A stretch of DNA of 64,000 nt from Henricia sp. BOLD:AAB3569 (Eukaryota > Echinodermata > Asteroidea > Spinulosida > Echinasteridae): NCBI GenBank assembly GCA_037783545.1, contig JBBELK010000003.1:4278001-4342000 (forward strand), written 5' to 3'. The translations under genes were made by a program, and so were the position numbers. Under the pieces are notes generated by a model, which ran no database searches, was not told the origin of the DNA, and saw nothing but the letters and a program-made list of their open reading frames with translations. Position 1 is the first letter of the stretch; each line of letters opens with the position of its first letter. Below are positions 1 through 40,146 of the stretch, piece after piece.

Positions 1-3000
1 GCCAGGTGTGTCGGGGGCCTGCCGTTTGTCATTTTACCGACTTGGCTAGGTTCCGACACGACACAGGTTTCGAAGCGGCACCGGTTCTGACACAACGGGT
101 TCTGACACGGCACGAGTTCCGACGTGACTCTGGTTTCGACGCGACTATAGGGTTGTCATACGGCACGAAACATTTGATCCGAGTGAAAGGTAATGTTTGG
201 GGTCCGGCGTGTGCCAGAGCCCTGTGTATGTCAGGGGTCCAGCGTGCATCAGTGGCCAGGTGTGTCGGGGGCCTGCCGTTTGTCATTTTACCGACTTGGC
301 TAGGTTCCGACACGACACAGGTTTCGATGCGGCACGGGTTCTGACACAACGGGTTCTGACACGGCACGAGTTCCGACGTGACTCTGGTTTCGACGCGACT
401 AGGGTTGTCATACGGCACGAAGCATTTGATCTGGAAGGTAATGTTTGGGGTCCGGCGTGTGCCAGAGCCCTGCGTATGTCAGGGGTCCAGCGTGCATCGG
501 TGGCCAGGTGTGTCGGGGGTCTGCCGTTTGTCGTTTTACCGACTTGGCTAGGTTCCGACACGACACAGGTTTCGAAGCGGCACCGGTTCTGACGCAACGG
601 GTTCTGACACGGCACGAGTTCCGACGTGACTCTGGTTTCGACGCGACTATAGGGTTGTCATACGGCACGAAACATTTGATCCGAGTGAAAGGTAATGTTT
701 GGGGTCCGGCGTGTGCCAGAGCCCTGTGTATGTCAGGGGTCCAGCGTGCATCAGTGGCCAGGTGTGTCGGGGGCCTGCCGTTTGTCATTTTACCGACTTG
801 GCTAGGTTCCGACACGACACAGGTTTCGATGCGGCACGGGTTCTGACACAACGGGTTCTGACACGGCACGAGTTCCGACGTGACTCTGGTTTCGACGCGA
901 CTAGGGTTGTCATACGGCACGAAGCATTTGATCTGGAAGGTAATGTTTGGGGTCCGGCGTGTGCCAGAGCCCTGCGTATGTCAGGGGTCCAGCGTGCATC
1001 GGTGGCCAGGTGTGTCGGGGGTCTGCCGTTTGTCGTTTTACCGACTTGGCTAGGTTCCGACACGACACAGGTTTCGATGCGGCACGGGTTCTGACACAAC
1101 GGGTTCTGACACGGCACGAGTTCCGACGTGACTCTGGTTTCGACGCGACTAGGGTTGTCATACGGCACGAAGCATTTGATCTGGAAGGTAATGTTTGGGG
1201 TCCGGCGTGTGCCAGAGCCCTGTGTATGTCAGGGGTCCAGCGTGCATCGGTGGCCAGGTGTGTCGGGGGTCTGCCGTTTGTCGTTTTACCGACTTGGCTA
1301 GGTTCCGACACGACACAGGTTTCGATGCGGCATGGGTTCTGACACAACGGGTTCTGACACGGCACGAGTTCTGACGTGACTCTGGTTTCGACGCGACTAG
1401 GGTTGTCATACGGCACGAAGCATTTGATCTGGAAGGTAATGTTTGGGGTCCGGCGTGTGCCAGAGCCCTGCGTATGTCAGGGGTCCAGCGTGCATCGGTG
1501 GCCAGGTGTGTCGGGGGTCTGCCGTTTGTCGTTTTACCGACTTGGCTAGGTTCCGACACGACACAGGTTTCGATGCGGCACGGGTTCTGACACAACGGGT
1601 TCTGACACGGCACGAGTTCCGACGTGACTCTGGTTTCGACGCGACTAGGGTTGTCATACGGCACGAAGCATTTGATCTGGAAGGTAATGTTTGGGGTCCG
1701 GCGTGTGCCAGAGCCCTGTGTATGTCAGGGGTCCAGCGTGCATCGGTGGCCAGGTGTGTCGGGGGTCTGCCGTTTGTCGTTTTACCGACTTGGCTAGGTT
1801 CCGACACGACACAGGTTTCGATGCGGCATGGGTTCTGACACAACGGGTTCTGACACGGCACGAGTTCCGACGTGACTCTGGTTTCGACGCGACTAGGGTT
1901 GTCATACGGCACGAAGCATTTGATCTGGAAGGTAATGTTTGGGGTCCGGCGTGTGCCAGAGCCCTGCGTATGTCAGGGGTCCAGCGTGCATCGGTGGCCA
2001 GGTGTGTCGGGGGTCTGCCGTTTGTCGTTTTACCGACTTGGCCAGGTTCCGACACGACACAGGTTTCGAAGCGGCACGGGTTCTGACACAACGGGTTCTG
2101 ACACGGCACGAGTTCCGACGTGACTCTGGTTTCGACGCGACTATAGGGTTGTCATACGGCACGAAACATTTGATCTGAGTGAAAGGTAATGTTTGGGGTC
2201 CGGCGTGTGCCAGAGCCCTGTGTATGTCAGGGGTCCAGCGTGCATCGGTGGCCAGGTGTGTCGGGGGCCTGCCGTTTGTCATTTTACCGACTTGGCTAGG
2301 TTCCGACACGACACAGGTTTCGATGCGGCACGGGTTCTGACAAAACGGGTTCTGGCACTGCACGAGTTCCGACGTGACTCTGGTTTCGAAGCTACTAGGG
2401 TTGTCATACGGCACGAAGCATTTGATCTGGAAGGTAACGTTTGGGGTCCGGCGTGTGCCAGAGCCCTGTGTATGTCAGGGGTCCAGCGTGCATCGGTGGC
2501 CAGGTGTGTCGGGGGCCTGCCGTTTGTCATTTTACCGACTTGGCTAGGTTCCGACACGACACAGGTTTCGAAGCGGCACCGGTTCTGACACAACGGGTTC
2601 TGACACGGCACGAGTTCCGACGTGACTCTGGTTCGACGCGACTATAGGGTTGTCATACGGCACGAAACATTTGATCTGAGTGAAAGGTAATGTTTGGGGT
2701 CCGGCGTGTGCCAGAGCCCTGTGTATGTCAGGGGTCCAGCGTGCATCGGTGGCCAGGTGTGTCGGGGGCCTGCCGTTTGTCATTTTACCGACTTGGCTAG
2801 GTTCCGACACGACACAGGTTTCGATGCGGCACCGGTTCTGACACAACGGGTTCTGACACGGCACGAGTTCCGACGTGACTCTGGTTTCGACGCGACTATA
2901 GGGTTGTCATACGGCACGAAAAACATTTGATCTGAGTGAAAGGTAATGTTTGGGGTCCGGCGGGTGCCAGAGCCCTGTGTATGTCAGGGGTCCAGCGTGC

Positions 3001-6000
3001 ATCGGTGGCCAGGTGTGTCGGGGGTCTGCCGTTTGTCGTTTTACCGACTTGGCTAGGTTCCGACACGACACAGGTTTCGATGCGGCACGGGTTCTGACAC
3101 AACGGGTTCTGACACGGCACGAGTTCCGACGTGACTCTGGTTTCGACGCGACTAGGGTTGTCATACGGCACGAAGCATTTGATCTGGAAGGTAATGTTTG
3201 GGGTCCGGCGTGTGCCAGAGCCCTGTGTATGTCAGGGGTCCAGCGTGCATCGGTGGCCAGGTGTGTCGGGGGTCTGCCGTTTGTCGTTTTACCGACTTGG
3301 CTAGGTTCCGACACGACACAGGTTTCGATGCGGCATGGGTTCTGACACAACGGGTTCTGACACGGCACGAGTTCCGACGTGACTCTGGTTTCGACGCGAC
3401 TAGGGTTGTCATACGGCACGAAGCATTTGATCTGGAAGGTAATGTTTGGGGTCCGGCGTGTGCCAGAGCCCTGCGTATGTCAGGGGTCCAGCGTGCATCG
3501 GTGGCCAGGTGTGTCGGGGGTCTGCCGTTTGTCGTTTTACCGACTTGGCTAGGTTCAGACACGACACAGGTTTCGATGCGGCATGGGTTCTGACACAACG
3601 GGTTCTGACACGGCACGAGTTCCGACGTGACTCTGGTTTCGACGCGACTAGGGTTGTCATACGGCACGAAGCATTTGATCTGGAAGGTAATGTTTGGGGT
3701 CCGGCGTGTGCCAGAGCCCTGCGTATGTCAGGGGTCCAGCGTGCATCGGTGGCCAGGTGTGTCGGGGGTCTGCCGTTTGTCGTTTTACCGACTTGGCTAG
3801 GTTCCGACACGACACAGGTTTCGATGCGGCACGGGTTCTGACACAACGGGTTCTGACACGGCACGAGTTCCGACGTGACTCTGGTTTCGACGCGACTAGG
3901 GTTGTCATACGGCACGAAGCATTTGATCTGGAAGGTAATGTTTGGGGTCCGGCGTGTGCCAGAGCCCTGCGTATGTCAGGGGTCCAGCGTGCATCGGTGG
4001 CCAGGTGTGTCGGGGGTCTGCCGTTTGTCGTTTTACCGACTTGGCTAGGTTCCGACACGACACAGGTTTCGATGCGGCACGGGTTCTGACACAACGGGTT
4101 CTGACACGGCACGAGTTCCGACGTGACTCTGGTTTCGACGCGACTAGGGTTGTCATACGGCACGAAGCATTTGATCTGGAAGGTAATGTTTGGGGTCCGG
4201 CGTGTGCCAGAGCCCTGTGTATGTCAGGGGTCCAGCGTGCATCGGTGGCCAGGTGTGTCGGGGGTCTGCCGTTTGTCGTTTTACCGACTTGGCTAGGTTC
4301 CGACACGACACAGGTTTCGATGCGGCATGGGTTCTGACACAACGGGTTCTGACACGGCACGAGTTCCGACAAGACTCTGGTTTCGACGCGACTAGGGTTG
4401 TCATACGGCACGAAGCATTTGATCTGGAAGGTAATGTTTGGGGTCCGGCGTGTGCCAGAGCCCTGCGTATGTCAGGGGTCCAGCGTGCATCGGTGGCCAG
4501 GTGTGTCGGGGGCCTGCCGTTTGTCATTTTACCGACTTGGCTAGGTTCCGACACGACACAGGTTTCGATGCGGCACGGGTTCTGACAAAACGGGTTCTGG
4601 CACTGCACGAGTTCCGACGTGACTCTGGTTTCGAAGCGACTAGGGTTGTCATACGGCACGAAGCATTTGATCTGGAAGGTAATGTTTGGGGTCCGGCGTC
4701 TGCCAGAGCCCTGTGTATGTCAGGGGTCCAGCGTGCATCGGTGGCCAGGTGTGTCGGGGGCCTGCCGTTTGTCATTTTACCGACTTGGCTAGGTTCCGAC
4801 ACGACACAGGTTTCGAAGCGGCACCGGTTCTGACACAACGGGTTCTGACACGGCACGAGTTCCGACGTGACTCTGGTTTCGACGCGACTATAGGGTTGTC
4901 ATACGGCACGAAACATTTGATCCGAGTGAAAGGTAATGTTTGGGGTCCGGCGTGTGCCAGAGCCCTGTGTATGTCAGGGGTCCAGCGTGCATCAGTGGCC
5001 AGGTGTGTCGGGGGCCTGCCGTTTGTCATTTTACCGACTTGGCTAGGTTCCGACACGACACAGGTTTCGATGCGGCACGGGTTCTGACACAACGGGTTCT
5101 GACACGGCACGAGTTCCGACGTGACTCTGGTTTCGACGCGACTAGGGTTGTCATACGGCACGAAGCATTTGATCTGGAAGGTAATGTTTGGGGTCCGGCG
5201 TGTGCCAGAGCCCTGCGTATGTCAGGGGTCCAGCGTGCATCGGTGGCCAGGTGTGTCGGGGGTCTGCCGTTTGTCGTTTTACCGACTTGGCTAGGTTCCG
5301 ACACGACACAGGTTTCGAAGCGGCACCGGTTCTGACACAACGGGTTCTGACACGGCACGAGTTCCGACGTGACTCTGGTTTCGACGCGACTATAGGGTTG
5401 TCATACGGCACGAAACATTTGATCCGAGTGAAAGGTAATGTTTGGGGTCCGGCGTGTGCCAGAGCCCTGTGTATGTCAGGGGTCCAGCGTGCATCGGTGG
5501 CCAGGTGTGTCGGGGGCCTGCCGTTTGTCATTTTACCGACTTGGCTAGGTTCCGACACGACACAGGTTTCGATGCGGCACGGGTTCTGACACAACGGGTT
5601 CTGACACGGCACGAGTTCCGACGTGACTCTGGTTTCGACGCGACTAGGGTTGTCATACGGCACGAAGCATTTGATCTGGAAGGTAATGTTTGGGGTCCGG
5701 CGTGTGCCAGAGCCCTGCGTATGTCAGGGGTCCAGCGTGCATCGGTGGCCAGGTGTGTCGGGGGTCTGCCGTTTGTCGTTTTACCGACTTGGCTAGGTTC
5801 CGACACGACACAGGTTTTGATGCGGCACGGGTTCTGACACAACGGGTTCTGACACGGCACGAGTTCCGACGTGACTCTGGTTTCGACGCGACTAGGGTTG
5901 TCATACGGCACGAAGCATTTGATCTGGAAGGTAATGTTTGGGGTCCGGCGTGTGCCAGAGCCCTGTGTATGTCAGGGGTCCAGCGTGCATCGGTGGCCAG

Positions 6001-7936
6001 GTGTGTCGGGGGTCTGCCGTTTGTCGTTTTACCGACTTGGCTAGGTTCCGACACGACACAGGTTTCGATGCGGCATGGGTTCTGACACAACGGGTTCTGA
6101 CACGGCACGAGTTCCGACGTGACTCTGGTTTCGAAGCGACTAGGGTTGTCATACGGCACGAAGCATTTGATCTGGAAGGTAATGTTTGGGGTCCGGCGTC
6201 TGCCAGAGCCCTGTGTATGTCAGGGGTCCAGCGTGCATCGGTGGCCAGGTGTGTCGGGGGCCTGCCGTTTGTCATTTTACCGACTTGGCTAGGTTCCGAC
6301 ACGACACAGGTTTCGAAGCGGCACCGGTTCTGACACAACGGGTTCTGACACGGCACGAGTTCCGACGTGACTCTGGTTTCGACGCGACTATAGGGTTGTC
6401 ATACGGCACGAAACATTTGATCTGAGTGAAAGGTAATGTTTGGGGTCCGGCGTGTGCCAGAGCCCTGTGTATGTCAGGGGTCCAGCGTGCATCGGTGGCC
6501 AGGTGTGTCGGGGGCCTGCCGTTTGTCATTTTACCGACTTGGCTAGGTTCCGACACGACACAGGTTTCGATGCGGCACGGGTTCCGACACAACGGGTTCT
6601 GACACGGCACGAGTTCCGACGTGACTCTGGTTTCGACGCGACTAGGGTTGTCATACGGCACGAAGCATTTGATCTGGAAGGTAATGTTTGGGGTCCGGCG
6701 TGTGCCAGAGCCCTGTGTATGTCAGGGGTCCAGCGTGCATCGGTGGCCAGGTGTGTCGGGGGTCTGCCGTTTGTCGTTTTACCGACTTGGCTAGGTTCCG
6801 ACACGACACAGGTTTCGATGCGGCACGGGTTCTGACACAACGGGTTCTGACACGGCACGAGTTCCGACGTGACTCTGGTTTCGACGCGACTAGGGTTGTC
6901 ATACGGCACGAAGCATTTGATCTGGAAGGTAATGTTTGGGGTCCGGCGTGTGCCAGAGCCCTGTGTATGTCAGGGGTCCAGTGTGCATCAGTGGCCAGGT
7001 GTGTCGGGGGTCTGCCGTTTGTCGTTTTACCGACTTGGCTAGGTTCCGACACGACACAGGTTTCGATGCGGCATGGGTTCTGACACAACGGGTTCTGACA
7101 CGGCACGAGTTCCGACGTGACTCTGGTTTCGACGCTACTAGGGTTGTCATACGGCACAAAGGATTTGATCTGGAAGGTAATGTTTGGGGTCCGGCGTGTG
7201 CCAGAGCCCTGCGTATGTCAGGGGTCCAGCGTGCATCGGTGGCCAGGTGTGTCGGGGGCCTGCCGTTTGTCATTTTACAGACTTGGCTAGGTTCCGACAC
7301 GACACAGGTTTCGAAGCGGCACGGGTTCTGACAAAACGGGTTCTGACACGGCACGAGTTCCGACGTGACTCTTGTTTCGACGCGACTAGGGTTGTCATAC
7401 GGCACGAAACATTTGATCTGAGTGAAAGGTAATGTTTGGGGTCCGGCGTGTGCCAGAGCCCTGTGTATGTCAGGGGTCCAGCGTGCATCGGTGGCCAGGT
7501 GTGTCGGGGGCCTGCCGTTTGTCATTTTACCGACTTGGCTAGGTTCCGACACGACACAGGTTTCGATGCGGCACGGGTTCTGACAAAACGGGTTCTGACA
7601 CGGCACGAGTTCCGACGTGACTGTGGTTTCGACGCGACTAGGGTTGTCATACGGCACGAAGCATTTGATCTGGAAGGTAATATTTGGGGTCCGGCGTGTG
7701 CCAGAGCCCTACGTATGTCAGGGGTCCAGCAGCGTGCATCGGTGGCCAGGTGTGTCGGGGGTCTGCCGTTTGTCGTTTTACCGACTTGGCTAGGTTCCGA
7801 CACGACACAGGTTTCGATGCGGCACGGGTTCTGACACAACGGGTTCCGACACGGCACGAGTTCCAACGTGACTCGGGTTTCGACGCGACTAGGGTTGTCA
7901 TACGGCACGAAGCATTTGATCTGGAAGGTAATGTTT
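1..7936. repeat. Satellite 1: 248/254-bp tandem array
   Basis: About 32 head-to-tail copies of a GC-rich unit. The landmark GTAATGTTTGGGGTCCGG recurs at 191, 439, 693, 941, 1189 and onward. Most spacings are 248 bp. A 254-bp form carries ACTATAGGG and GAGTGAAAGG in place of ACTAGGG and GGAAGG. Copies are highly similar and differ at recurring positions. The unit length is not a multiple of three, and both strands give 110-250-codon frames built from the same peptide, so I treat these frames as non-coding. The left boundary is outside the window. The right boundary is sharp, at 7936. Confidence 0.97.
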
Positions 7937-8030
7937 GCCCCGGGGGCGGGGGGCGGGAGGAGGCGGGGGGCGGGAGGAGGCGGGGGGCGGGAGGAGGCGG
8001 GGGGCGGGAGGTGGGAGGGTTGGGGGGGAT
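7937..8030. repeat. 18-bp G-rich minisatellite
   Basis: About four and a half copies of GCGGGGGGCGGGAGGAGG directly abut the last satellite 1 unit, then decay into GGGAGGTGGGAGGG. The many runs of three or more G on the plus strand could form G-quadruplexes. Confidence 0.9.
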
Positions 8031-17287: not shown

Positions 17288-17439
17288 TTATTCCCAGCTT
17301 TCCCAATCATCCAAGTCCACATCATCGTCATCATTAGCAGTAACTTGCGTCTTGGTGTGAAGAGCCGCGGCTGCAAGATCTTCCTCAGTTACATCGATGT
17401 CATCAAAATCTCGCTCCCAATCGTCACTCAGACTCGACT
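17288..17439 (-). CDS. BSDC1: BSDC1 last exon, acidic C-terminus
   Basis: Acceptor TTTTGCCAG/AG. It encodes SLSDDWERDFDDIDVTEEDL and ends DDWESWE before the stop TAA at 17288-17290. Vertebrate BSDC1 ends with the same pattern: DWEKDFD, then MTEEE, then a terminal WEDWE. The stop overlaps an AATAAA (minus strand, 17287-17292). Confidence 0.9.
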
Positions 17440-20400
17440 CTGGCAAAACAAATCAAATGATTTACAGTTGAACATCAATACTAAGAGCACTGTTAATACA
17501 GCACCCCATTTAATAACCACAACAATTTTAGGTCCTAATTTTGTCTGTCATTGACCCCGTTCTCACTAAAGAAATAGCTCCGTTCGACAAAGATTAGTTA
17601 ATGAAACTTGCATTTCTCACTTAAAGGCAGAGGCTCGTCAATGCGCGCGAGGCCAAATAAAGCCACGAAATACGCAGCTCCATAGCAAAGGCATGGAGCT
17701 GCATATTTTGTGGCACGAATTTAGCCTCACGCGTGCACTGACGAGCCTGTGCTTTAAACGAAGATCGAATAAAGAGCGGTACCATTCACATTAGACAACC
17801 ACTAACGAAGATCGAATGAAGCTGTGGAACGAAGCGATTTCTCTACTGAGAAAGTGGTCATTGTGAGGGATGGGATTGGTTAATTCAGAAACTGGTTTGC
17901 AATTCTTTCCAGTGTCGGTTAACTGGTTAAATGTTCGGCTGACTCTAAGGATTGTTGCTGGTGTTTATACATGTTTAATGTACACAATACCCCCAGGCCC
18001 CCAAAATAATCATTGAACCTTTATCTGGTCAAAATTTTAGTACGACTCGATATGAATTTATTTCAGTTTCATGAAGTCATTACAAATCTTCTGAAAACCA
18101 TTGTAAATTCTTTAAAATTGGGTTTCATTTAAATGTTCGGCAAAACTGGTTTTTCAATCTTTTTCGGTTAAACGGTTAAACGTCCCATCCCTATATTGTT
18201 TTCATTCCTGATACACGATTCCTGCTATACCAAGGTAATGTGCAAAGTCTCGAAGACCTCATATTAACAAGTTTTGACTGTATTTTCAAGAAAAGCATTC
18301 TTTTTTACATCGTAATCTCTCAAAGTTCTAGAGCTAATTTTGATTCTGATTCATCTGATGTGCAATAAACACGCACCTTTGTTACTTGCATCCGATCCAG
18401 ACGGCGAAATCTTCTTATCAACGGATGCATCAGATGAGATCTCTTCAGGAGGAGCGGGTACTTGTACTGTCAGCCTGTTTGCATCCTTGTCATTTTGACA
18501 CGAGGAATGACTCAGACCCTCATTGTTCTCATCTTGGTCTTTAGATGTGACATTATCAGTTTCTTGACCGTCAGAGTGACTCATCTGAACAACACTTTCT
18601 CTAGTTTTGTCTAAACTCAATCTGACATTTGTAGATGTTGAATCCGTGTTGCTAGCCTCTTGTTTACAGTGGTCTACTGCACCTATCGGACTGAGCTCTG
18701 TACAGGCATCTTCTCCAGTTGTTCCTTGTTTCATGAGGCCAGAATGTTCCCTCTGATCTTCACACACTTGTTCTGTTGTTGTCATTTCTATTCCCAGCTC
18801 ACCCCTGTCATCCACCAGTCTACATTCCTTAGTCTGTTTCTCATCAGTCCTATTAACACTGCTGCTTGGATCCTGTATCCCGTCTTCATCTAGTACAGAG
18901 ATCAAGTCACTGCTGCCTTCTGTATGCACTGGGACAGACACATCATCTAGTACAGAGATCAAGTCACTGCTGCCTTCTGTATGCACTGGGACAGGCACAT
19001 CATCTAGTACAGAGATCAAGTCACTGCTGCCTTCTGTATGCACTGGGACAGACACATCATCTAGAAGATCAAAGTTTAGAAACCATTAATCATAATGGAT
19101 TTTAAGTTCACACTCTGGTTCCTTGTTCCTCTAAAGCGGGCCTCCCACTGTGAGATTTGTTTCATGATTGAGTACGATTTGGTGAGATTACCAGATACTG
19201 TCCATACACAATTGTACCAAATCGTACATAATCGTTATAAATTCGTGGCAAAAATCGCACAGTGGGAGGCCCACTTTACACCAGGGAAGTAATGGCACTG
19301 GGTAAAACCACTGGCCCTTTCCCCCTCAAGCATCTCATTAGGGTCGACAATGTTGTTGTTGATATCGTCCCCATTACTTGATGCTTCAAGTACGTTTGCT
19401 GCACTCTTGTCTTTGCACTGATACGTTGGTGTAAGCCTCATGGTATATTGGTCTTGAGAGTCCTAGTAGCTCAGCTATGGACACGGCCAGAGACCGGGGA
19501 AACCCCTAACTCTTCACGAAAGAATGCCCTGGGATCTTTTAAGTGCCTTACACAACACACTGGACCAACGGCTTTACATCCCTTCCGAAGGGCACAGGTA
19601 CCCCAGCCAGGTATCGAACCTGCAAACCCCAAGTTTTCACCCAAGTATTGCAAGTCAGTGACCTAAACCGCTCGGCCACGGTACCCCACTCTCTTCACTG
19701 TCAACATCTTTTACATTTACTTGTGCACACAATATTTGCAAGGACAAAAGTTCAATTAGTGCTCTTTTCTCAAGAATAGATGGCATAATAATTTACTTTA
19801 TCACAGGTCTAGCAATGTTCGTGTTCACTTTTTCCCATGCATGATGTGCACGCACGCACGCATCGAATGTTGCTCTCGACGCCGCCTGCATTGTAAAATG
19901 CCTGAATTAGAATTCTCACCTTCCTCATCATCCCACAGAAGCTCCTCCTCATCAAACGTCTGAGATGACGTCATTTCAGCACGTTCCTTAAGCGCTGCTC
20001 GCCGGGCCTCATCTTGGTTTAACTGGTGAACTTTGTAGAAATAACGTCCCCAAAAGTCGGCGTTAGATACACTTGCAGGGACCTGCAAAATGCATAACAG
20101 GCCAATCGTATCATTTGCAAGCACCCAAAGTTTTATTTCAAAGGTTGATAGCAATGGTAACAAACATGGTACTTTCTGTAAGAAATTAACAACTGAAGAT
20201 TTTTAAAAATGTGTTCACACACAAGCATGGATTTTAAAGGTTTCCTGAAGCATTGCTGTATCTATGTAGCTGAAATTTCTGCAGGCTAGTTTACCAACAT
20301 TCTTCTTTAGATATATTATGTCCTTATTTCGGGAATCTGTAAACAAGTTTCATTTTGTACATGTAAATGATACATTGGGTCCTTAGGGTTCATTCACAAT

Positions 20401-23400
20401 GAGCCTTTTCGCACATAATGTTGACGCACGTCGCTTTGGGGTTGATTTAACAAAAATAATTTTCTACGCGCCGTAACAACTGATGAACCCTTCGCACAGT
20501 TACGACTACCAAATAGGTCATCGCAACTTTAACAAGTATAAAGATTGTATAACGTTGCGTAGCGGTGCTGCCAACATACTGCGACGTGTACCCGTCGCAA
20601 GTGTTTTGTGAAATGCAACTCTAAAATCCGTCGTAAACCTACGAAGGGTTTGGCGAGTTGGATTTGATGGCTTGTCACGACCACACGGTCGCGACAAACC
20701 AGGCTGGTCGCGACCACGCGGCCAACCTCGAAATACATGGGTGCGACAGTTCGAGACTTACCACGCAATGTCTGCGCAAGATGAAATATCGCAACTGACC
20801 GGTCGGTCTGGGTGGCTTAACGTCCCTCAGCTGGATACAGAACATCATGATGGATTTGAGCACTTACGACGCGTCAATAGTATTTGTGAAATAGACCCCT
20901 GGTGGGAATTTGGAATGAAAGGACTCACTGAAAACCACAGAATCGACTTCGGCGGAGAGCGTTTTGTGATCTTCAGCGTGTCATTTCACGCCAAATTTAT
21001 GCGCGAGAAAGTTCAGTGTGAATTCACCCTTAACCACTTCGCGACGGCTTGGCATTTTCCAATTTATTCCCCTGGAGCGGGAGACTGCACTAGCAGTTTT
21101 GGTTATGCAGTATACATGTATGTCTCTGGGTCTGGAGACTTGATGACTAGTTTTTATTTCAAGTCGTAAATCAATCAGTCCAGTCACAAGTCATTTTCTC
21201 CAGAGTCAAGTCACAGGTCAAAAACCCAAAACTGACTTGACCCCAAGCCAACAAGATGAGAGACCAGCTCTGCCCTGGTACTGACCCATGGGCTAATTCT
21301 GTATAACCGCCCCCAAGACACTCACACTTAGAACTGCATATGCAGTTCCGTCGTGAAGTGGTTAAACGTACACACATCTTACCAGTTTTGTATATATAGC
21401 CCTGACATCTGTGTTAGCTACCAGTAACTCCGAGATGTCTCCTTTATACTTGTCCGTATCGAATGACTGCAGCCAGTCCTCATACACATTGGCAGGGCAG
21501 TCAGGATCAGTGGTGTATGTACTAAGATCGATCTGCATGGAGTGTAGACGTGCCTGTGGTCAAGAGAAACAAAATCCAGTCTCAGCTTGAATACTCGACA
21601 TCTCTAGCTGGGATCTCAATGTTGGGAAGCCAACTGAATTATAATATTGTGTCTTCCTTCTAAATACAATGGATTTGAAAGTACAATCTAGAATGTAAAA
21701 TCTAAACCAGGAGGTACTGGTAAAGGAATTTGGAGACAACCACTAGGGGGGGGCGAGTCCTGTCGTTTTTAGACTTATTTCAAGTCTGACTTTGTGTACA
21801 ATGTACCAGTTATGCACACGGTACACGATCTCAGACTTGAGTTACAATGGTCAACTCCATTATGCAGTATTTATTAAGGAATGTCTCAAAATCAACCTTA
21901 TTGAGCTATCACTTAAAAAGCATCGATTGTGCTTTGACAAACGCAGGGCTAAAAACGTGGGCAATTAAGCAGGAGTCTGCTGAAAGTAGCTCCCATGGAG
22001 GTCTTAGTGGAAGCTCTGTGAGAGATTTTTGCAGTACACAAGAGCAGGGGAGGTTTCACAAAGCGCTAAGACACGTCTTAAGAAGGGTCACTCTTCTTAT
22101 CTTGGAAAGTTGGTATGAGAATTAGGACGCATTGAACTCATCTTAACTTTTATATCACCCCAGGTTATGTAAAACACCAGCTGTGAGCTTTGTATTTCTA
22201 TGAATGAGGCGGGAGTTAATTTTTGAGTTGTTGAGTGCTAATTGTCAATTTTGAGCCTTGTATATGTTGTGCATTAACGATAAATCAGCAACCTGAACAA
22301 ACCTTTGCTCTATCAAAGATGTGCTGGCTGCTTCTAGATGAAACACCACAAGATTCTTCCTCATTGACCGAGTCTTTGGGAGCAAGGCTTTCTGATAGAC
22401 CACTCAGTAAATTGGAGAATCCTTGCTTGACACGGCTAGTGGTTGATGATGCAGGTAGCTCTGTCTACAAGATAACCAAACAGATCAAAAGACTACCTAA
22501 ATACATGTACTGTACATACTTCACAAATTAGTTTAAAGGCCAAATATATGTATATCATTTGAAAGACTTTACTGATTCCTGGAATAAGAGCATAATATAT
22601 CTTTAAAACCTTTAAAACGTATGCATGGTTTTAGTGTCAAGTCAATGATAAAACAAATGTATGAGCACACACTTTTTCTTTCAAAAACCACCTTCAGTCG
22701 TTAACTTCTCACAGAAAGTATTATCTAGGAATGAAATAAATTCATGTGGTGTTTGTAACCACTGCAGGGCTCGACATTAACGGTTGTCCGACTGTCCGGG
22801 ACAGGTAAAATTTCCAAAACATGCCAGTCGGACAGGTAAAAACACTGCCGTGCCTGTCCGGGACCGATGGACAGGTGAAAATATACTAAATACATGTAAA
22901 AGCCCACCTTCCTCGTTTCTTGGCTGTAAATCGATCCTTACCTGCATTTCGTGCAGTTTGAATATACCACAAAATGTTTTTCAGGTTCATCAATCGTACG
23001 GCTGCATAGCCGGCATGCAACGAACAACAATCTGCAGCGTGTGCATGCATCACCATTTTTCACATACGTTTACTAAATGTATGTACTTCGTTTAGCGGAT
23101 TTTTGACCCTCGAAAGGGGGATCGTATACCTTGTTTGAGGGCTATCAGCACTGGGACCAGTTCATTTGCATGTGTGTTCATATTGACAAAGTACCAGCGA
23201 TCAGTTCTTCGGATATTCTTTGTGCATGACGGCTTCAGTTTCGTTTTGGTTTCGTCTTTTTGCTACTGCGTATTTCTGGTTCAAACACAACCTTAAAATT
23301 CCACGTTATAACAAATCAGATGCATTCTTTTGTGGAGTTTTATTTCATTTCTGTACAATACCTCCTCGGACAGGTAAAACATTTTGTCGGACAGGTAAAA

Positions 23401-24150
23401 TCTAATCTCTACCTGTCCCGTGGACAGGTGCACATGAAAAGTTAATGTCGAGCCCTGCACTGCTATCAATACTTTGAGTAGGTTTTGTTTTCTTCTCGTC
23501 AACTCATGAAGTAATGTTGGCTCACCAAGTTCTTTACATAATTAAAGGGCGTGCTGAGATCTTTAGAATGTTTGGACAAACTGTGACATGATCGAGTCAA
23601 ATTACCGATGATAAGACTGCACATACCTGCATACTGTCTCTGATTTTGCCTGCCGATACAGCGACCACAGACGAAGTGTCTCAAATTACCGATGATAAGA
23701 CTGCACATACATGTACCTGCATACTGTCTCTGATTTTGCCTGCCGATACAGCGACCACAGACGAAGTGTCTCAAATTACTAATGATAAGACTGCACATAC
23801 CTGCATACTGTCTCTGATTTTGCCTGCCGATACAGCGACCACAGACGAAGTGTCTCTTTGTATCGTACTCCCAAATTCTCCCAGATCTTTCTTAACCTGT
23901 TCCAGGGCAACTGCAGTCTGCCATAAATAAACAGGTCAAAAACATTACCATCAAAAATCCACACACAGATTTAAAGGCCCAATATCATCATTATGGATTT
24001 CTGGAATAAGGTCAGTAAACTAACCTGCAGAAAGTCAAGCTAACATTAGACATTATAACAATGAAAGACAATGAAAGTAGAATATTTGTACAAACCTTTT
24101 CCTTTGCAGACTGAATCCACCCATCCCACCAGCTACTCCCATCATCTTCA
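17288..24150 (-). CDS. BSDC1: BSD domain-containing protein 1 homologue (multi-exon)
   Basis: Coding segments in gene order, all minus strand: 24096-24150, 23801-23917, 22303-22458, 21383-21553, 19920-20082, candidate 19282-19410, 18377-19060 and 17288-17439. Each uses GT-AG borders, and the reading phase is consistent throughout. The order of motifs matches animal BSDC1: a Trp-rich N-terminus (SSWWDGW), a helical region, the BSD domain with its conserved FW dipeptide (ADFWGRYFYKV), a long disordered Ser/Asp/Glu-rich segment, and an acidic C-terminus ending DDWESWE, like the DVEWEDWE end of vertebrate BSDC1. The visible part encodes about 541 residues (498 without the candidate exon), against about 430 in vertebrates as I recall. 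The disordered exon explains most of the excess. The start codon is not resolved and probably lies in an upstream exon. The biochemical function of the family is poorly known. The BSD fold is a small helical domain named after BTF2-like factors, synapse-associated proteins and DOS2-like proteins. Confidence 0.87.
17625..17753. mobile_element. TTAA-flanked hairpin MITE in BSDC1 intron
   Basis: Left AGGCAGAGGCTCGTCA and right TGACGAGCCTGTGCT are inverted repeats between TTAA at 17621-17624 and TTAA at 17754-17757. The centre is a second perfect stem (GCAGCTCCAT and ATGGAGCTGC). The whole 129 bp can fold on itself. Confidence 0.82.
18377..19060 (-). CDS. BSDC1: BSDC1 large disordered exon
   Basis: 684 nt, phase 1 in and out, acceptor CTTCTAG/AT and donor AACAAAG/GTGCGT. 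It encodes about 228 residues rich in Ser, Asp, Glu and Thr with no fold visible. It starts with three near-identical 19-residue repeats (core SVPVHTEGSSDLISVL) from a 57-bp tandem repeat. Vertebrate BSDC1 also has a long acidic, disordered stretch here, so position rather than sequence supports the assignment. Confidence 0.75.
18890..19060. repeat. 57-bp coding tandem repeat, three copies
   Basis: ATCAAGTCACTGCTGCCTTC recurs at 57-bp spacing (18901, 18958, 19015). 57 bp is 19 codons, so copy-number change keeps the BSDC1 frame. Copies differ at only a few bases. Confidence 0.93.
19131..19279. mobile_element. MITE at candidate exon donor
   Basis: TAAAGCGGGCCTCCCACTGT is mirrored by CAGTGGGAGGCCCACTTTA. 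These are inverted repeats of about 28 bp on a 149-bp element. Its right end starts 2 nt inside the intron that follows the candidate exon. Confidence 0.7.
19282..19410 (-). CDS. BSDC1: Candidate BSDC1 exon in disordered region
   Basis: The 129 nt (43 codons, phase 1 in and out) are open and encode a Ser/Asn/Asp-rich peptide (NVLEASSNGDD). They can be included or skipped without changing frame. The acceptor (GTGCAAAG/AC) is weak. The donor (CCCTG/GTGTAAAG) is good and lies at the edge of a MITE. Low complexity prevents a family check. Confidence 0.4.
19447..19687 (-). mobile_element. tRNA-derived SINE, family B, copy 1
   Basis: The minus strand starts GGGGTACCGTGGCCGAGCGG, a leucine/serine-tRNA-like head with A box. 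The B box GGTTCGATACC lies at 19610-19620. The body contains CCTTCGGAAGGGATGTAAAG, GTTGGTCCAGTGTGTT and CATTCTTTCGTGAAGAG, shared with the copy at 25956-26222. It lies in the BSDC1 intron just upstream of the candidate exon at 19282-19410. Confidence 0.82.
19920..20082 (-). CDS. BSDC1: BSDC1 exon, C-terminal half of BSD domain
   Basis: Acceptor TTTTGCAG/GTC and donor GAGGAAG/GTGAGA. It encodes VPASVSNADFWGRYFYKVHQ, the strongest BSDC1 match in the window, with the invariant Phe-Trp and the Arg-Tyr-Phe-Tyr segment. A Lys/Arg/Glu helix and the acidic EEELLWDDEE follow. It is 163 nt and leaves phase 1. Confidence 0.92.
20383..21033. mobile_element. Imperfect-TIR element carrying a LINE-like peptide
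   Basis: The left end TTAGGGTTCATTCACAATGA and the right end, read in reverse complement (TTAAGGGTGAATTCACACTG), are similar over about 45 bp. This suggests a degenerate DNA element of about 650 bp. It abuts the TTAA of the next MITE. Confidence 0.5.
20672..20839 (+). pseudogene. Possible LINE ORF2 C-terminal remnant
   Basis: An open plus-strand segment reads SRPRGQPRNTWVRQFE, then MSAQDEISQLTGRSGWLNV. This resembles the basic RGRPRKTW...A.DRSGWR tail found after the reverse transcriptase of several non-LTR retrotransposons. Only the tail is present, with no reverse transcriptase core. The resemblance is from memory and could be chance. Confidence 0.35.
21034..21361. mobile_element. TTAA-flanked MITE beside BSDC1 donor
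   Basis: Inverted repeats CCACTTCGCGACGG and CCGTCGTGAAGTGG (13 of 14 match) lie between TTAA at 21030-21033 and TTAA at 21362-21365. TTAA duplications are typical of piggyBac-like and some other cut-and-paste families. It is 328 bp with no transposase frame. Confidence 0.75.
21383..21553 (-). CDS. BSDC1: BSDC1 exon, N-terminal half of BSD domain
   Basis: Fifty-seven codons, phase 0, with acceptor CCACAG/GCA and donor AAACTG/GTAAGA. It encodes YEDWLQSFD followed by GDISELLVANTDVRAIYTKL, which matches the start of the BSD domain (FDAWLSQF and GEISELL in vertebrates). A TTAA-flanked MITE sits about 17 bp downstream of the donor. Confidence 0.87.
22303..22458 (-). CDS. BSDC1: BSDC1 exon, linker with amphipathic block
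   Basis: Fifty-two codons, phase 0 in and out. Two acceptors lie 2 nt apart. Only the downstream one (ACAGAG/CTA) keeps the frame. It encodes RVKQGFSNLLSGLSESLAPK, corresponding to the KMKKGLSDFLG-type block of BSDC1. The donor is GCAAAG/GTTTGT. Confidence 0.82.
22765..23457. mobile_element. hAT-like non-autonomous element in BSDC1 intron
   Basis: Perfect terminal inverted repeats CAGGGCTCGACATTAAC and GTTAATGTCGAGCCCTG begin with the CAGGG typical of hAT elements. CACTG is repeated on both sides (22760-22764 and 23458-23462), shorter than the usual 8-bp hAT duplication. Several copies of CGGACAGGTAAAA occur near both ends, as sub-terminal transposase-binding repeats often do. There is no transposase frame. 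Confidence 0.75.
23598..23855. repeat. Triplicated exon end plus donor
   Basis: Three head-to-tail copies with spacings of 83 and 90 bp. GATGATAAGACTGCACATAC recurs at 23608, 23691 and 23781. Each copy holds the final 54 nt of the BSDC1 exon at 23801-23917, a donor-like GTATGTGC or GTACATGT, and a piece of intron. Confidence 0.9.
23801..23917 (-). CDS. BSDC1: BSDC1 helical-region exon (3' half triplicated downstream)
   Basis: Thirty-nine codons in phase 0, with acceptor ATGGCAG/ACT and donor ATGCAG/GTATGT. It encodes LEQVKKDLGEFGSTIQRDTS, matching the conserved block after the N-terminus in BSDC1. The last 54 nt of this exon and its donor are copied twice more downstream in the intron (see the repeat at 23598-23855). 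Confidence 0.82.
24096..24150 (-). CDS. BSDC1: BSDC1 exon with Trp-rich N-terminus
   Basis: Acceptor TACTACAG and donor AAAAG/GTTTGT bound 55 nt encoding EDDGSSWWDGWIQSAKEK, which corresponds to the first conserved block of BSDC1. The first base completes a codon begun in an earlier exon. An upstream ATG at 24293 is in frame if translation reads through the acceptor, but that extension does not look like the family. A short first exon ending near 24266 would fit the phase but has a weak donor. Confidence 0.75.
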
Positions 24151-24650
24151 CTGTAGTACCATGGAGGAATGAAAAACAAACAACAATAACGTAGTTGCCA
24201 GCTGGGATAAACACACGCGATGTCAATATAAATTATGCATATTGCACAGTTAGCCGGGCTCCTTGACGTCTCATGATTGAGAAGCGCCACCATTGTCCAG
24301 CATATTAGCTAAGATGGCAGCGCCCAGGGCATAACGCTGAATGAATATTGTCTAATTTTTTAAGACGCCGTAGATGGCTAGCTAAGATAATCTCAGCTCT
24401 TGCTTTATCATTTTTCATTGGGATGTGGTCTTTTTAGCAGTAGAGCTGAGAAGCTTTAAGAACATGAACACGCTATCACAAAACAAATGTGTAATTTTCT
24501 CACCGTGACACACTAATTCCCCCTAAAACTCACCCAAACCTTGTCAGGCATAACCACTACGCAGGTCCTTGAGGGAAATAACCAGCCACGATGATTATTT
24601 TGCCAACAATTCCAGCGAAACAAACCGGTATGCTCACAGCCTAGGCCCTA

Positions 24651-32011: not shown

Positions 32012-32250
32012 CTAAACTGACTTAGACGCGAAGTACATGAGTGTCCACCAGCCCTTTATATCCTCAACTCCAAGCTTCTTTCGTAACAGCTCATCTCCGT
32101 GTCGTTTGTACATCTCACACAATTCGTTGCCATCAATCTGTTTCTTTCTGAAGGTACCAATCATTCCAGGGTCCACTTTCAGGTATTTCAGCAGTATGAT
32201 CATGTCAAGCACGCCATGGTTGGATATGTTGCCATCCTTAGGTGGTACCT
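32012..32250 (-). CDS. THEMIS-like: THEMIS-like exon 5 (SAM domain)
   Basis: Acceptor TGTTACAG/AG, stop TAG at 32012-32014. It encodes VLDMIILLKYLKVDPGMIGT, then FRKKQIDGNELCEMYKRHG and LLRKKLGVEDIKGWWTL. This gives the five-helix SAM pattern with the F..K.IDG..L and L...LGV..I.G signatures. SAM domains mediate homo- or hetero-oligomers. GAREM proteins also end in a SAM domain. Confidence 0.85.
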
Positions 32251-35200
32251 CTGTAACACATAACAGCAAATTTATTTTTAAGCGTGCATTTATATCTTGA
32301 TAAAATAAACACATTTTAGGTTTTCTATAGTTGCTTTTGTTTTCCCGCTCACGTATAACAACAAACGAACTATATGTGTCTCAGATGATGGGTATAATGG
32401 AGAAAATCTGTATAGTTTTTGATTCCGTGTATACGGTGAGAGGAAAACAAACAATCAACCAAAATCATCAGCCAAAACATCTTCAAGTTTTCTTTTCTTC
32501 AAGTATTCGAGCATGCACTGAGTCGCTTCTAGCTCAATTATGGCGTCATTACAACGCACCTTTAGGCCCATGGGGTACTGATTTCTGTATTTCGGTACGG
32601 TCGAATTTTTCATAATCATCATCGTCATTATCAGAATCGGGATTTTCATAATCATGAGAATGACAGACCGATTCCTGAAATTCCCAAATATCTGCAAGAA
32701 AAACAGGAAAAGGAAACAGATCATGAAAATTAAATCTAGATTTCCTGCAACAGAGCTAGTTAAGTTTTCTATAGGAGAAACGCTTTGGAGAGAGGAAGCA
32801 AATTTGCGCAATCTCATGAAACAGGCATAGATAATGCACTGATTAAGAATAAAGTAAAACTGCTAATTGTTTACAAAATAATTTAAACTGCAGAGACGTT
32901 GAAGCAGTGAAACGAAAACGAGGTGGATAGGTTATTGGAAGCAGTTCGTTATAATGAAACAGGCTTTGACATTAAACATACCCCGATTTGAGGTCGTCTC
33001 CGACTGCCCGTCTTTATTCTGTCGGTGCTGCTCCTTGAATCTCTGGCCTTGTTTTTTCCTATAAAAATGATAATCAAAATTAAATCACAAACAGGTGCTT
33101 CCTGGGGCGACCGGTCTCATCACCTCCTTCTTTGAAACATCTTAACCCGTATAGAATGTTGCTATGACACCAAATAACATAGTCATGGTTCTACTCCAAA
33201 TATTCATTGCAAAAGTACAGATAATGGTTGTTATAGTGAAGATGACTCATTGACTCCAGTTTGGATAGGAAAATAAATTACAGAGTTCCCGTTTCTATTT
33301 TCGAGTTCCCGTTTCTATTTTATGTCATCGGAGCCGTTTTCCATTGCGTGATTTGCAAGTCACGATGGTGCAATCGACATGATATTGAGGAAACAAATGA
33401 AAATGAAAGTTTAATTTTGCAGAGTGCGAATTAAATTCGAAGCACAATTTTTGGATCATTATAGGACTAAACTTTTTAAGGCTATATAGGTAAATACGAA
33501 GTTATGTGCATCATGGTAATAAAAATAAAAACTTAATTGGGCACAAACCATGGAAATTGCAGATACTTCAAAACAGACGAGCGACCTGTTGGTGACGATG
33601 GGGGAGATGGTGACATGAGGAAGGGTGGAGTTGAAGGCAGCGGGGGCGGGGACAGCAAGATGTCTGACATGAGGCGTGGCGCTGGGCTTTTAGGTGGGAG
33701 GGGCGGTATTACTCCTTCTTTCTCCTGACGCAGTAGTTTGTCAACCAGATACCGAGGTTTGGGCGGTCTTCCTGGGGCTGTCTTGTCGACTTTTCCGGTT
33801 GGGCTTTTTGCCCCATCACGGTCCGATTGCCGTGATGGAATTGGAGGCGGAAGGGACTCGTACATTTCGTCTTCTGAGCGAATAATTTGCCGCAACTCGC
33901 CTGCAGAAACTTTGATTATTTTAGACATGGAGTTGGGCAGTTTTTCATCTTTGTCAACATTTATTTTTCTGCTTATTGATCGCACGGCAACTTTGCTGAA
34001 TCTCGGAACAATGACAACGTCACCAGGAGACCACTTCTGGCGACTTGGACCAAGTATGCTAACAACAGATAGGCTGATGTTTGGTTGCTCAATGATCTGT
34101 AGAGGCGACATGCGCAATAGCCAATCATCGTCAGTATTAGGTGTTTCATCAATACCCACATCGGGCTGTGTTAATGTTACTTGAATGGGTAAAATCTGCT
34201 TGAGAATTTGTGACATGGGATGATTTCCTGCTAATGGCGAAGTCTCGTGGAATTGAGCTCTAACGTGAATGGACACGGTGACTTTGCCAACTTCACCCGA
34301 CAGGGACCGACTTCTATTCATCTCAACCACATCACATTCGGTTTTGTACAAATACAACGATTCGATTGCCGTGCTTTTTAAACGAACGATGTCATGCTCG
34401 TGCAACGTATCCAAAGACCCATCTCCTTTGCATGTCGTGCCCACGTGGACGTCTTCGTACACTTTTGCTTGGAGTAGGTCTTTTGCAGTAGGCCAAGTTT
34501 TCACGCTAATCTGAAACAAATAATTCATTTGTAATTATAAATACGAGATTAATGAATAATAATCAGGTTTTTGGAGAGTGCGTCGATCTGTGTGTTTGCA
34601 ATTCCGGGACCTTTTCCGATTGCACCCTTTGGTATGTCCCCTTCACAACCATTCTGATGTGTCAGGTTCTTTTGTCATGGGTGCAGCCCTGCAGCAAATG
34701 CAGTACCATATGGTTTGACGGTTTAATGATTTTCGGTTAAGCCTATCGAGTCGCTGCGGCGTGGTTCGCTCTCTTTTCTGACAACGACGTCTTGTAGAAC
34801 AAAAGCTTCTCCACCTCCCACCCCTCCTGCCATGATGTCACTTTTTTTTCTCGGGTTGGGTCATTATGTTGGCTGAACATTATTTCTTTTTTTCGAAAGT
34901 GTACTAAAGATGTGACTTCAGTTCAGAGCCGGGTTAGAAAAGTGAGTCTTTACAAGTATTCTTTTATATAAAAGATAAAATTTAACATTTTTGTGGTTAT
35001 TCATTATTTAGAAATTCGAAATAGTCCTTAATTGTATATCAACTTGGTTATATTGCTGTATTGTGTCTTGTGGCGGTTCGGGCCCATGCACATAACTCTC
35101 TTAAGTTATTGCAGTATTCCTATTTTCAAATGCCTTTTGAGGTTTAAGAAAACCATTGATGTGTTTTGATTATTGCTTCTCCGATTTGTTCCATTTTGTG

Positions 35201-36629
35201 ATAATGGGTTTTCATTGACTGCTAGCTATATGTGAGTTATAAAGATATTTAATTCAGTTGACGATGTTTTGGTAATCATTTGTTGGATTATATTAATAAA
35301 TCATTGGACTCTGAATTCCAGTGTTTGTAAAATGGTTTGTTTCATTCCGACGCGCGAATATACATAAAAATCGATGTTCAGTGTTTAAATAGATATCAAT
35401 CGGTAACCCAATCATGCATAATTTGCTAAGTAACACTGAACACTATACGGAGAGTCCGTTCTCTGAATGCAAGAATCTTTATTGTTTGGGCTTCATATAT
35501 ATGAGGCTGGATGGTGTCATAAATAAAGTAGCAGAAATAATCATTACTATAGCTATTCTTGTCGGTGTTGTTTGAAATAAAATATTTAAAGTAAAATAGA
35601 CTCCAAGTGTACGTTGGTTGCAACTTGTAACAATGAATGAAGACATACCTTAAAGAGCGACGTGTAACTGGCAGGAATGAGGACACTGGTACCATCCCTT
35701 CCTTTAGCCAGTGCGAAGCTATGAATCTGCGTGCCGTGTACTTTAAGAATCGTGTCCTTCGGACACCCAGGGACCGTAGTGTCATTATTAACAACCACAG
35801 CGAGCCTTGGGGACGATGCATCCGCCTCGTGGGCCAAATCATAGATGTCCACAACAGGTCCTATTTTGTCTCCCCAGTCTTTCCTTGGATAAACTGCTAC
35901 CCCAGTTGTCAAAGGAATCCGAAGTGTGTTGTCAGGATTCTCCCAGGGACACGCCTCCACAATTTCAATTTTGTTCAGGATCATGTCTCCGTTGAAATCC
36001 GGATCCAAGCCTGGAATGCCATGATGCACATTCCTCATAGCTTGGCCCACGTCTTGAACTAGACGCACTCGCTGCGGTAGACGATGGTACAAATCGCGTA
36101 AACTCAAGGCATATTTTTCTGACTTTTTGGCAAAGCATTTCTGGAAATCCCCGCATATATTGATCACCTCGCCTGTTCTCACAATTCTGCACTCAATGCT
36201 AGGCATCACTACACTAGCATTTTTCAGTAATTTTAGACGATCACCCTTTTTGATGGTGGTGCCGTATACTTGAACTTTGCGCACCGCATGCACGAACTCG
36301 GGAAAATCGGACACCATTTGGTCGAGTGTTTCATAAAGATGGCCGTCCTCATAGTGTGACTGCACTGTGAACAGGGCGTCAGTGAAGTTTTTGTCGAGAG
36401 TTATTAAACCTTTCTTGCTTGGGCCTGCGTATAACGCGTCGAATGTAATGTTCACTTCTTCTTTGATACAGTTCAAACGCAGAATATCGCCGTGGGAGAA
36501 ATCCCGAACCTCACTGTCCTTCTCGTGCGAACCATAGATACCCTCTGCTATTTCCACAACTACGGGCAAACTAGACCGATTTCTCTCAACAAAACAGTCC
36601 AGGGATTCAGCATTACCACTGGACGCCAT
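32012..36629 (-). CDS. THEMIS-like: THEMIS/GAREM-type CABIT-CABIT-SAM adaptor protein
   Basis: Five coding exons on the minus strand: 35649-36629, 33567-34510, 32982-33058, 32560-32691 and 32012-32250. They total 2373 nt, which is 790 residues plus stop, with matching phases and GT-AG borders. Residues 1-327 and 328 to about 535 resemble the two CABIT modules of THEMIS. Landmarks are LPVVVEIAEGIYG, TIKKGDRLKLL, LRDLYHRLPQRVRL and LIPASYTSLFK. A proline-rich region (about 548-637) has SH3-ligand-like PPPIPSR and GRPPKPR. Residues 668-711 are acidic with Tyr682 in YENP. Residues about 722-786 form a SAM domain. In vertebrates THEMIS has two CABITs and a proline-rich GRB2-binding tail, and acts in T-cell receptor signalling with SHP1. 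GAREM has one CABIT and a SAM domain and acts in EGF-receptor signalling. This protein combines both layouts. It is probably cytoplasmic. The ATG at 36629 is chosen because the longer frame begins with TTG. Confidence 0.87.
32560..32691 (-). CDS. THEMIS-like: THEMIS-like exon 4 (acidic, tyrosine motifs)
   Basis: Acceptor TTCTTGCAG/AT, donor CCTAAAG/GTGCGT, 132 nt. It encodes HDYENPDSDNDDDDYEKF: Tyr682 in a Tyr-x-Asn context, the GRB2 SH2 consensus when phosphorylated, and Tyr694, in a run of Asp/Asn that would favour tyrosine kinases. Confidence 0.78.
32982..33058 (-). CDS. THEMIS-like: THEMIS-like exon 3 (basic linker)
   Basis: Seventy-seven nt between acceptor TTTTATAG/G and donor AATCGGG/GTATGT. 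It encodes a charged linker (KKQGQRFKEQHRQNKDG). It is too short for a stand-alone call. Support comes from the exact phase fit (2 in, 1 out) with both neighbours. Confidence 0.72.
33567..34510 (-). CDS. THEMIS-like: THEMIS-like exon 2 (rest of CABIT 2, proline-rich tail)
   Basis: Acceptor GTTTCAG/ATT, donor TTGAA/GTATCT, 944 nt, phase 0 in and phase 2 out. It opens with ISVKTWPTAKDLL, matching the segment after the LIPTSYKGKF-type motif of THEMIS. It continues to about residue 535 and then becomes proline-rich, with DEMYESLPPPIPSR (Tyr544), GRPPKPRY and PPLPPKSP. Reading on past the donor gives a short tail and a stop, so a retained intron would truncate the protein before the SAM domain. 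Confidence 0.85.
35649..36629 (-). CDS. THEMIS-like: THEMIS-like exon 1 (CABIT 1 and start of CABIT 2)
   Basis: Starts MASSGNAESLDCF with a favourable context (A at -3, G at +4). It ends with donor TTTAAG/GTATGT in phase 0 after 327 codons. The first about 250 residues fit CABIT 1. From about residue 275 the sequence RLAVVVNND, then LKVHGTQIHSFAL and LIPASYTSLFK looks like the opening of CABIT 2, as in THEMIS. Confidence 0.88.
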
Positions 36630-38850: not shown

Positions 38851-39094
38851 GTGAAGAGCTTTTGTAAAAGACGCTCTTAAATAGTAAAAAAAGGTCCATT
38901 GATAATTGTGTACGTGAAAGAATTTCGTCTAAGAAACGAACAAAGGGCTCAACCAGGTGGTTGACCTTGTACGCACGGTGCGTGCGTGAAGGAATCTCGT
39001 CTATGTGACGAACAAAACTGCAAATCTCCGGGTTAGGCAGTTTGTAGTGGGAAAAGGGTATATATATGGCAGGCAATGGCCATAGACAGTCGTA

Positions 39095-40146
39095 CAGTAA
39101 CGAGGAAACGCCGTATTGGGCATTCCGGTACTGCGCAGTCAATGGCCATAGGACTGTACAGTAACGAGGAAACGCCGTATTGGGCATTTCGCTACTGCAC
39201 AGGCAATGGCCATAGGACTGTACATAACAAGGAAACGCCGTATTGGGCATTTCGCTACTGCACAGCTAAGGGCCATAGGCTGTACAGTAACGAGGAAACG
39301 CCGTATTGGGCATTTCGCTACTGCACAGGCAATGGCCATAGGCTGTACAGTAACGAGGAAACGCCGTATTGGGCATTTCGGTACTGCACAGGCAATAGCA
39401 ATAGACTGTACAGTAACGAGGAAACGCCGTATTGGGCATTTCGTTACTGCACAGGCAATGGCCATAGGACTGTACATAACAAGGAAACGCCGTATTGGGC
39501 ATTTCGCTACTGCACAGCTAAGGGCCATAGGCTGTACAGTAACGAGGAAACGCCGTATTGGGCATTTCGCTACTGCACAGGCAATAGCAATAGACTGTAC
39601 AGTGACGAGGAAACGCCGTATTGGGCATTTCGCTACTGCACAGGCAATGGCCATAGGACTGTATATAACAAGGAAACGCCGTATTGGGCATTTCGCTACT
39701 GCACAGCTAAGGGCCATAGACTGTACAGTAACGAGGAAACGCCGTATTGGGCATTTTGCTATTGCACAGGCAATGGCCATAGGCTGTACAGTAACGAGGA
39801 AACGCCGTATTGGGCATTTCGCTACTGCACAGGCAATGGCCATAGGCTGTACAGTAACGAGGAAACGCCGTATTGGGCATTTCGCTACTGCACAGGCAAT
39901 GGCCATAGGCTGTACAGTAACGAGGAAACGCCGTATTGGGCATTTCGCTACTGCCCAGGCAATGGCCATAGGCTGTACAGTAACGAGGAAACGCCGTATT
40001 GGGCATTTCGCCACTGCACACCTAATGGACATAGACTGTACAGTAACGAGGAAACGCCGTATTGGCCATTTCGCTACTGCACAGGCAATGGCCATAGACT
40101 GTACAGTAACGAGGAAACGCCGTATTGGCCATTTCGCTACTGCATA
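39095..40146. repeat. 63-bp minisatellite, about 17 copies
   Basis: The unit contains GAGGAAACGCCGTATTGGGC, ATTTCGCTACTGCACAGGCA and ATGGCCATAGGCTGTACAG. 63 bp equals 21 codons, so three frames stay open through the array: plus 39076-40242, plus 39206-40174 and minus 39139-40203. The peptides are pure 21-residue repeats with no other domain. I regard the frames as a by-product. Variants with GTACATAACAAGG recur every three to four units. Confidence 0.95.

Follow-up and report, generated by a model that had tools for sequence, protein, structure and literature searches.

The 64,000-nucleotide stretch of genomic DNA analysed here (the window) carries, on its minus strand at positions 36629-32012, an intact gene model predicted from the genomic sequence, in which four coding exons join in phase to encode a protein of 758 residues. 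We consider it likely that an ambulacrarian, probably an echinoderm, has here an intact adaptor gene of the THEMIS class whose product ends in a probable SAM domain of GAREM type. Every exon join has consensus splice sites, and the reading frame is open through all four exons. The initial annotation had assigned five exons and 790 residues to the gene; however, a consensus-based scan for further phase-compatible exons, confined to coding exons, returned a single weak 27-base candidate, in intron 3, and none in the other two introns, and a fifth coding exon was therefore rejected. Because the frame stays open over four consensus-spliced exons, and because a second haplotype keeps both the frame and the splice sites, we dismissed chance as an explanation of the model.

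The second haplotype was recovered when the protein was searched against the genome from which the window comes (740.7 Mb in 2104 contigs), which gave eight matches, all of them exons of two copies, namely the window locus and one on contig C754. Positions 298001-328000 of that contig run collinear with the window across an adjoining gene with a BSD domain and across the first part of the right-hand satellite (the left-hand satellite lies outside the comparison), with interruptions by gaps, chiefly at window 24.3-30.4 kb. Because these flanks are collinear, we take the C754 copy to be the other haplotype of this gene; a recent duplicate or pseudogene was rejected on the collinear flanks and the intactness of the copy. 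Its exons differ from those of the window by 14 substitutions in 2274 bases and one in-frame 3-nt deletion, with all six splice sites unchanged. Exon 1 differs at 2 of 981 bases, exon 2 has 9 substitutions in 922 bases plus the deletion, and the introns have 21 in 2264 along with further length changes. Of the eight resulting amino-acid substitutions, the linker and the acidic segment together hold six, and the first CABIT and the SAM exon one each; the second CABIT lacks one proline in the other haplotype. Purifying selection is not evident over the gene as a whole (14/2274 exon versus 21/2264 intron substitutions, Fisher p 0.24); exon 1 alone is less diverged than the introns (2/981, p 0.022, uncorrected).

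The mitochondrial contigs of the same genome bear on its origin. COX1 reads sensibly with translation table 9 (AAA Asn, ATA Ile, AGR Ser), the echinoderm and flatworm code, in agreement with the initial annotation, which had called the protein invertebrate-type. Conserved COX1 positions presumably demand Asn, and the sequence looks to us like that of an echinoderm; the code thus indicates an ambulacrarian and, within that group, probably an echinoderm. One of these contigs, C955 (L039-L041, L043, L044), holds the mitochondrial genome as a head-to-tail concatemer with COX1 every 16,221 bases, three times, which is an assembly artefact.

The N-terminal part of the protein consists of two CABIT modules, as had been proposed. 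On the spliced protein the Pfam profile PF12736 scores 33.1 bits in total, against a curated cut-off of 24, the two stretches being those reported up to an E of 10, a lenient threshold; excised and scanned singly, the modules reach 18.6 and 19.0 bits (E 0.0014 and 0.001), each below the cut-off. The same profile run on the genome contigs gave no matches even for this gene, nor in any control genome, and is uninformative on copy number. CABIT1 pairs best with CABIT1, and CABIT2 with CABIT2, of a partly verified vertebrate THEMIS reference sequence, one-to-one and in the same order; around CABIT2, 25% of 185 aligned columns are identical. The reference sequence is that of THEMIS1, THEMIS2 being considered by description, and the reference sequences were checked in part, THEMIS by Pfam and published positions and the GAREM1 CABIT by Pfam alone. 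A single CABIT marks the GAREM type, which this protein fails to match. Thus, with two consecutive CABITs, matching CABIT order and a PxRPxK motif after CABIT2, the protein looks like a member of the THEMIS class.

Behind CABIT2, the tail contains three P..P.[KR] sites (PGRPPK, PPIPSR and PPLPPK), so that the SH3-ligand motifs of the initial annotation hold. The PxRPxK pattern, present here as PGRPPK, occurs in about 2% of shuffled tails, and three or more P..P.[KR] sites likewise occur in about 2%. The predicted acidic tyrosine segment is also present, in exon 3, with the motifs DYENP and DYEKF; we take the YENP of the former to fit a GRB2 SH2-type site, YxN. The proline motif has a precedent among vertebrate proteins, in that THEMIS binds the C-terminal SH3 domain of GRB2 via PxRPxK (PMC4339124) and PPPRPPK is common to Themis1 and Themis2 (PMC2903609).

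The terminal exon was assessed by comparison with a few specific SAM domains, by shuffle and profile tests, and it is on these that our SAM call is based. One reference was PDB entry 2dkz, whose record is titled 'hypothetical protein LOC64762' and which we take to be GAREM1. With BLOSUM62, the score of exon 4 against 2dkz was reached by 9 of 5000 shuffles, and among 247 open reading frames of the window exon 4 was the best against 2dkz and against the SARM1 SAM, but not against the tir-1 SAM. With BLOSUM45, the 2dkz score was reached by 1 of 3000 shuffles, that against the SAM of a GAREM-like locus in the same genome (described below) by 8, and those against two other SAM frames of the genome by 36 and 656. 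A profile built from these four SAMs and run on 1720 targets placed the exon-4 frames of both haplotypes (E 0.022 and 0.059) next after a true SAM, itself a haplotig of a training sequence. General searches gave a different picture: the NCBIfam scan found no SAM match in this protein, a PDB sequence search with the exon returned nine weak, unrelated matches, and BLASTP of exon 4 against 2dkz gave no meaningful alignment (E 3.0). The SAM domain announced by the initial annotation therefore stands as a SAM-like C-terminal exon in the shuffle and profile tests, but lacks a Pfam, NCBIfam or PDB-sequence match; likewise, the profile search that it had proposed found CABIT twice, at the lenient threshold, and SAM not at all. 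We hold with moderate confidence that exon 4 would be a divergent SAM, probably of GAREM type.

A second locus with CABIT and SAM, GAREM-like in character, is present in the same genome (C882:405758-420494, with a haplotig on C387). Within 15 kb, and on a single strand, it combines CABIT pieces with a C-terminal SAM downstream of them; the SAM scores 36.3 bits in Pfam, and the predicted protein ends in GWRPK. Neither P.RP.K nor P..P.[KR] occurs in its 613-residue last exon. The CABIT pieces and the SAM may belong to one gene, with one CABIT or two. The genome-wide SAM search gave eight matches, including the two haplotypes of this locus. One of them, on C861 (E 0.0065), is a frame with a coiled coil plus SAM and has no recognisable CABIT in the 141 residues read. 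Four frames open with SAM-like sequence, three on contig C368 (L017, L018 and L020) and one on C132 (L019); L017-L019 are long and presumably SAMD9-like, and the four are possibly an invertebrate SAMD9-like cluster. Another frame, L021, we take to be SARM1-like.

Among known proteins, vertebrate THEMIS1 and THEMIS2 resemble this one in the tandem CABIT pair in similar register, the PxRPxK-type GRB2 motif after CABIT2 and the tyrosines of the tail, whereas the THEMIS class ends without the SAM-like domain seen here, and KRRPR is absent from the aligned place in our protein. GAREM1 and GAREM2 (FAM59A/B) share with it a CABIT, a proline-rich part and, probably, a C-terminal SAM, the 2dkz domain being the one that exon 4 resembles; however, they have a single CABIT rather than two. 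The GAREM-like locus of the same genome is similar in its CABIT pieces and C-terminal SAM, but differs in having a strong Pfam SAM and no PxRPxK in its last exon. Drosophila Serrano (Sano), by description, is an invertebrate member of the Themis family, albeit one published as a Dishevelled-binding planar polarity factor. The three Themis proteins are described as two CABITs plus a proline-rich region, and Garem proteins as a single CABIT followed in the list by a proline-rich region and a SAM (PMC4082722; the GAREM layout also in PMC8086153). The family has been traced to cnidarians (PMC4082722), Serrano has been placed in it with Themis (PMC2776533), and GAREM-like gene names appear in bivalve studies (PMC9892467, PMC12488463). 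An origin before adaptive immunity, which the initial annotation had suggested, thus holds for the family but is already published (PMC4082722, PMC2776533). Among the papers listed in our literature searches we found none on a protein with two CABITs and a SAM, and an earlier description of this layout is possible; what may be new is that a THEMIS-class protein whose GRB2 dock is older than the vertebrates also has a SAM.

Gene structure, two CABITs, motif and SAM-like sequence are all present in this gene, with an intact copy in both haplotypes, and the vertebrate relatives suggest how such a protein would work. The PxRPxK motif would bind the C-terminal SH3 domain of GRB2 constitutively, and through GRB2 the protein would be connected both to complexes of receptor tyrosine kinases and to phosphatases of the SHP type. 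Its two CABITs together would bind and tune the phosphatase; CABITs are reported to bind the phosphatase domain of SHP-1 and to stabilise its catalytic cysteine in the oxidised form (PMC10987373). The tyrosines of the acidic segment would supply a phosphorylation-dependent contact, and the SAM would give self-association or partner binding at the membrane.

Several results weigh against a THEMIS-class adaptor with a GAREM-type SAM. The SAM profiles (PF00536/PF07647) find no match in this protein up to E 10, and exon 4 folded alone by single-sequence AlphaFold gives a poor model (predicted local distance difference test, pLDDT, 56) with no Foldseek, VIA or PDB match. In the BLOSUM62 test the SARM1 SAM does as well as 2dkz (7 of 5000 shuffles), so that the GAREM type is not firm; the tir-1 SAM does not stand out (269 of 5000), and the spliced protein reaches only E 0.68 with the profile of four SAMs. 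The class assignment uses partly verified vertebrate THEMIS and GAREM1 CABIT sequences, compared pairwise. Neither BLASTP nor shuffle tests find the two CABITs of this protein similar to each other, and the place aligned with KRRPR, the nuclear signal in CABIT2 of the reference THEMIS, reads KISVK, signals elsewhere not having been sought. Finally, the haplotypes differ by 8 nonsynonymous and 6 synonymous changes, and constraint is not shown.

The same features have been weighed under three other explanations. A THEMIS-class gene could have gained its SAM separately by exon shuffling, which would make the likeness to GAREM convergent. This is consistent with a SAM-like domain on an exon of its own behind a phase-1 intron, preceded by a symmetric 1-1 exon 3, with a SAM that falls far short of the one at the GAREM-like locus (36.3 bits in Pfam, against no match here), and with the equal BLOSUM62 shuffle scores of the SARM1 SAM and 2dkz; we regard it as unlikely. 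It is decidedly unlikely, in our estimate, that exon 4 lies outside the transcript or is not a SAM, and that the protein is a plain THEMIS-like one ending in the exon 2 read-through: exon 2 does continue in frame to a stop at 33533, and exon 4 has neither a Pfam SAM match nor a structural one, but the joins of exons 2, 3 and 4 agree in phase and use consensus splice sites, both of which features the two haplotypes preserve, and the exon-4 frame ranks directly after the true SAM among the 1720 targets. Least probable, and improbable outright, is descent from a form that preceded the separation of THEMIS and GAREM and still performs both jobs, because, although two CABITs and PxRPxK stand together with a C-terminal SAM-like domain as features of both proteins, the genome has a GAREM-like CABIT and SAM locus elsewhere and the two CABITs match those of the reference THEMIS one-to-one.

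For the same two reasons, the CABIT duplication and the THEMIS/GAREM split would predate this gene; to judge from these comparisons the split looks older, and the proposal in the initial annotation that the gene preserves the ancestral form was given up. Its union of THEMIS and GAREM layouts survives in the two CABITs, the GRB2-type proline motif and the probable GAREM-type SAM, with the fusion replaced by a THEMIS-class protein that has a SAM. A possible history, which we put forward tentatively, is that the ancestor of the THEMIS class was an adaptor that had two CABITs, a dock for GRB2 and a SAM at its end, distinct from GAREM already in the deuterostome ancestor, and that vertebrate THEMIS lost the last exons and with them the SAM, perhaps when an intron-retention form like the exon 2 read-through became fixed. 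If true, the T-cell receptor would have taken over its GRB2-phosphatase circuit from an older one of receptor kinases. T-cell selection depends on THEMIS; for the time before T cells, this gene offers a concrete protein with which to ask if GRB2 docking and the control of SHP phosphatases by CABITs were there earlier. Taken together, the SAM tail and the distinct GAREM-like gene would place the separation of THEMIS and GAREM before vertebrates.

Table 1. Features of the gene in window coordinates; in the splice-site entries a slash marks the junction.
Feature	Position	Strand	Description
Coding exon 1	35649..36629	-	981 nt, residues 1-327; start codon, CABIT1, candidate core cysteine C147, first part of CABIT2
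Exon 1 donor		-	TTTAAG/GTATGT; open frame leads into donor
Coding exon 2	33586..34510	-	925 nt, residues 328-636; remainder of CABIT2, proline-rich linker
Exon 2 acceptor and donor		-	TTTGTTTCAG/ and CAACAG/GTCGCT
Exon 2 donor read-through	33533..33585	-	in frame to stop at 33533-33535; candidate SAM-less product if intron retained
Coding exon 3	32560..32691	-	132 nt, residues 636-680; acidic segment
Exon 3 acceptor and donor		-	TTTTTCTTGCAG/ and CTAAAG/GTGCGT; both present in other haplotype
Coding exon 4	32012..32250	-	239 nt including stop, residues 680-758; divergent domain resembling SAM, of probable GAREM type
Exon 4 acceptor		-	TGTGTTACAG/
CABIT1	36569-36048	-	residues 21-194; Pfam stretch
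C147	36191-36189	-	candidate core cysteine of CABIT1; loose pairwise alignment to reference THEMIS
CABIT2		-	residues 291-447, spans exons 1-2; Pfam stretch
KTEC	34334..34345	-	residues 383-386, with candidate CABIT2 core cysteine C386; loose pairwise alignment to reference THEMIS
PGRPPK	33758..33775	-	residues 573-578; PxRPxK motif match, predicted GRB2 C-terminal SH3 dock
DYENP	32653-32639	-	exon 3 acidic stretch
DYEKF	32617-32603	-	exon 3 acidic stretch
AATAAA	31644..31649	-	possible poly(A) signal 3' of stop; motif only, one of four AATAAA/ATTAAA in 1 kb searched

The adjoining gene, on the minus strand at about 17291-24308, encodes a BSD domain (PF03909, 32.7 bits), and its exon-like frames look to us like BSDC1. 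Human THEMIS2 and BSDC1 are both on chromosome 1p, and a THEMIS2-BSDC1 linkage is possible. Beside the BSD-domain exons, the open frame 18351-19085 contains a 57-bp tandem repeat of 3.1 copies (18886-19064). A retroelement remnant on the minus strand at 37511-38556 matches reverse transcriptase (PF00078, 34.1 bits), with a zinc knuckle below the cut-off. Both ends of the window are satellite arrays, one of a 248-bp unit in about 32 copies (1-7937) and one of about 23.5 kb (40460-63953) with a 104-bp unit and a 207-bp higher period, the start of which is also found on the other haplotype. Next to the latter, at 39070-40144, lies a minisatellite of 17 copies of 63-bp units, open in several frames on both strands; the length of the unit most likely accounts for its long frames, one of which exceeds the Pfam cut-off for PF21631 and PF16146 with scores that look spurious.

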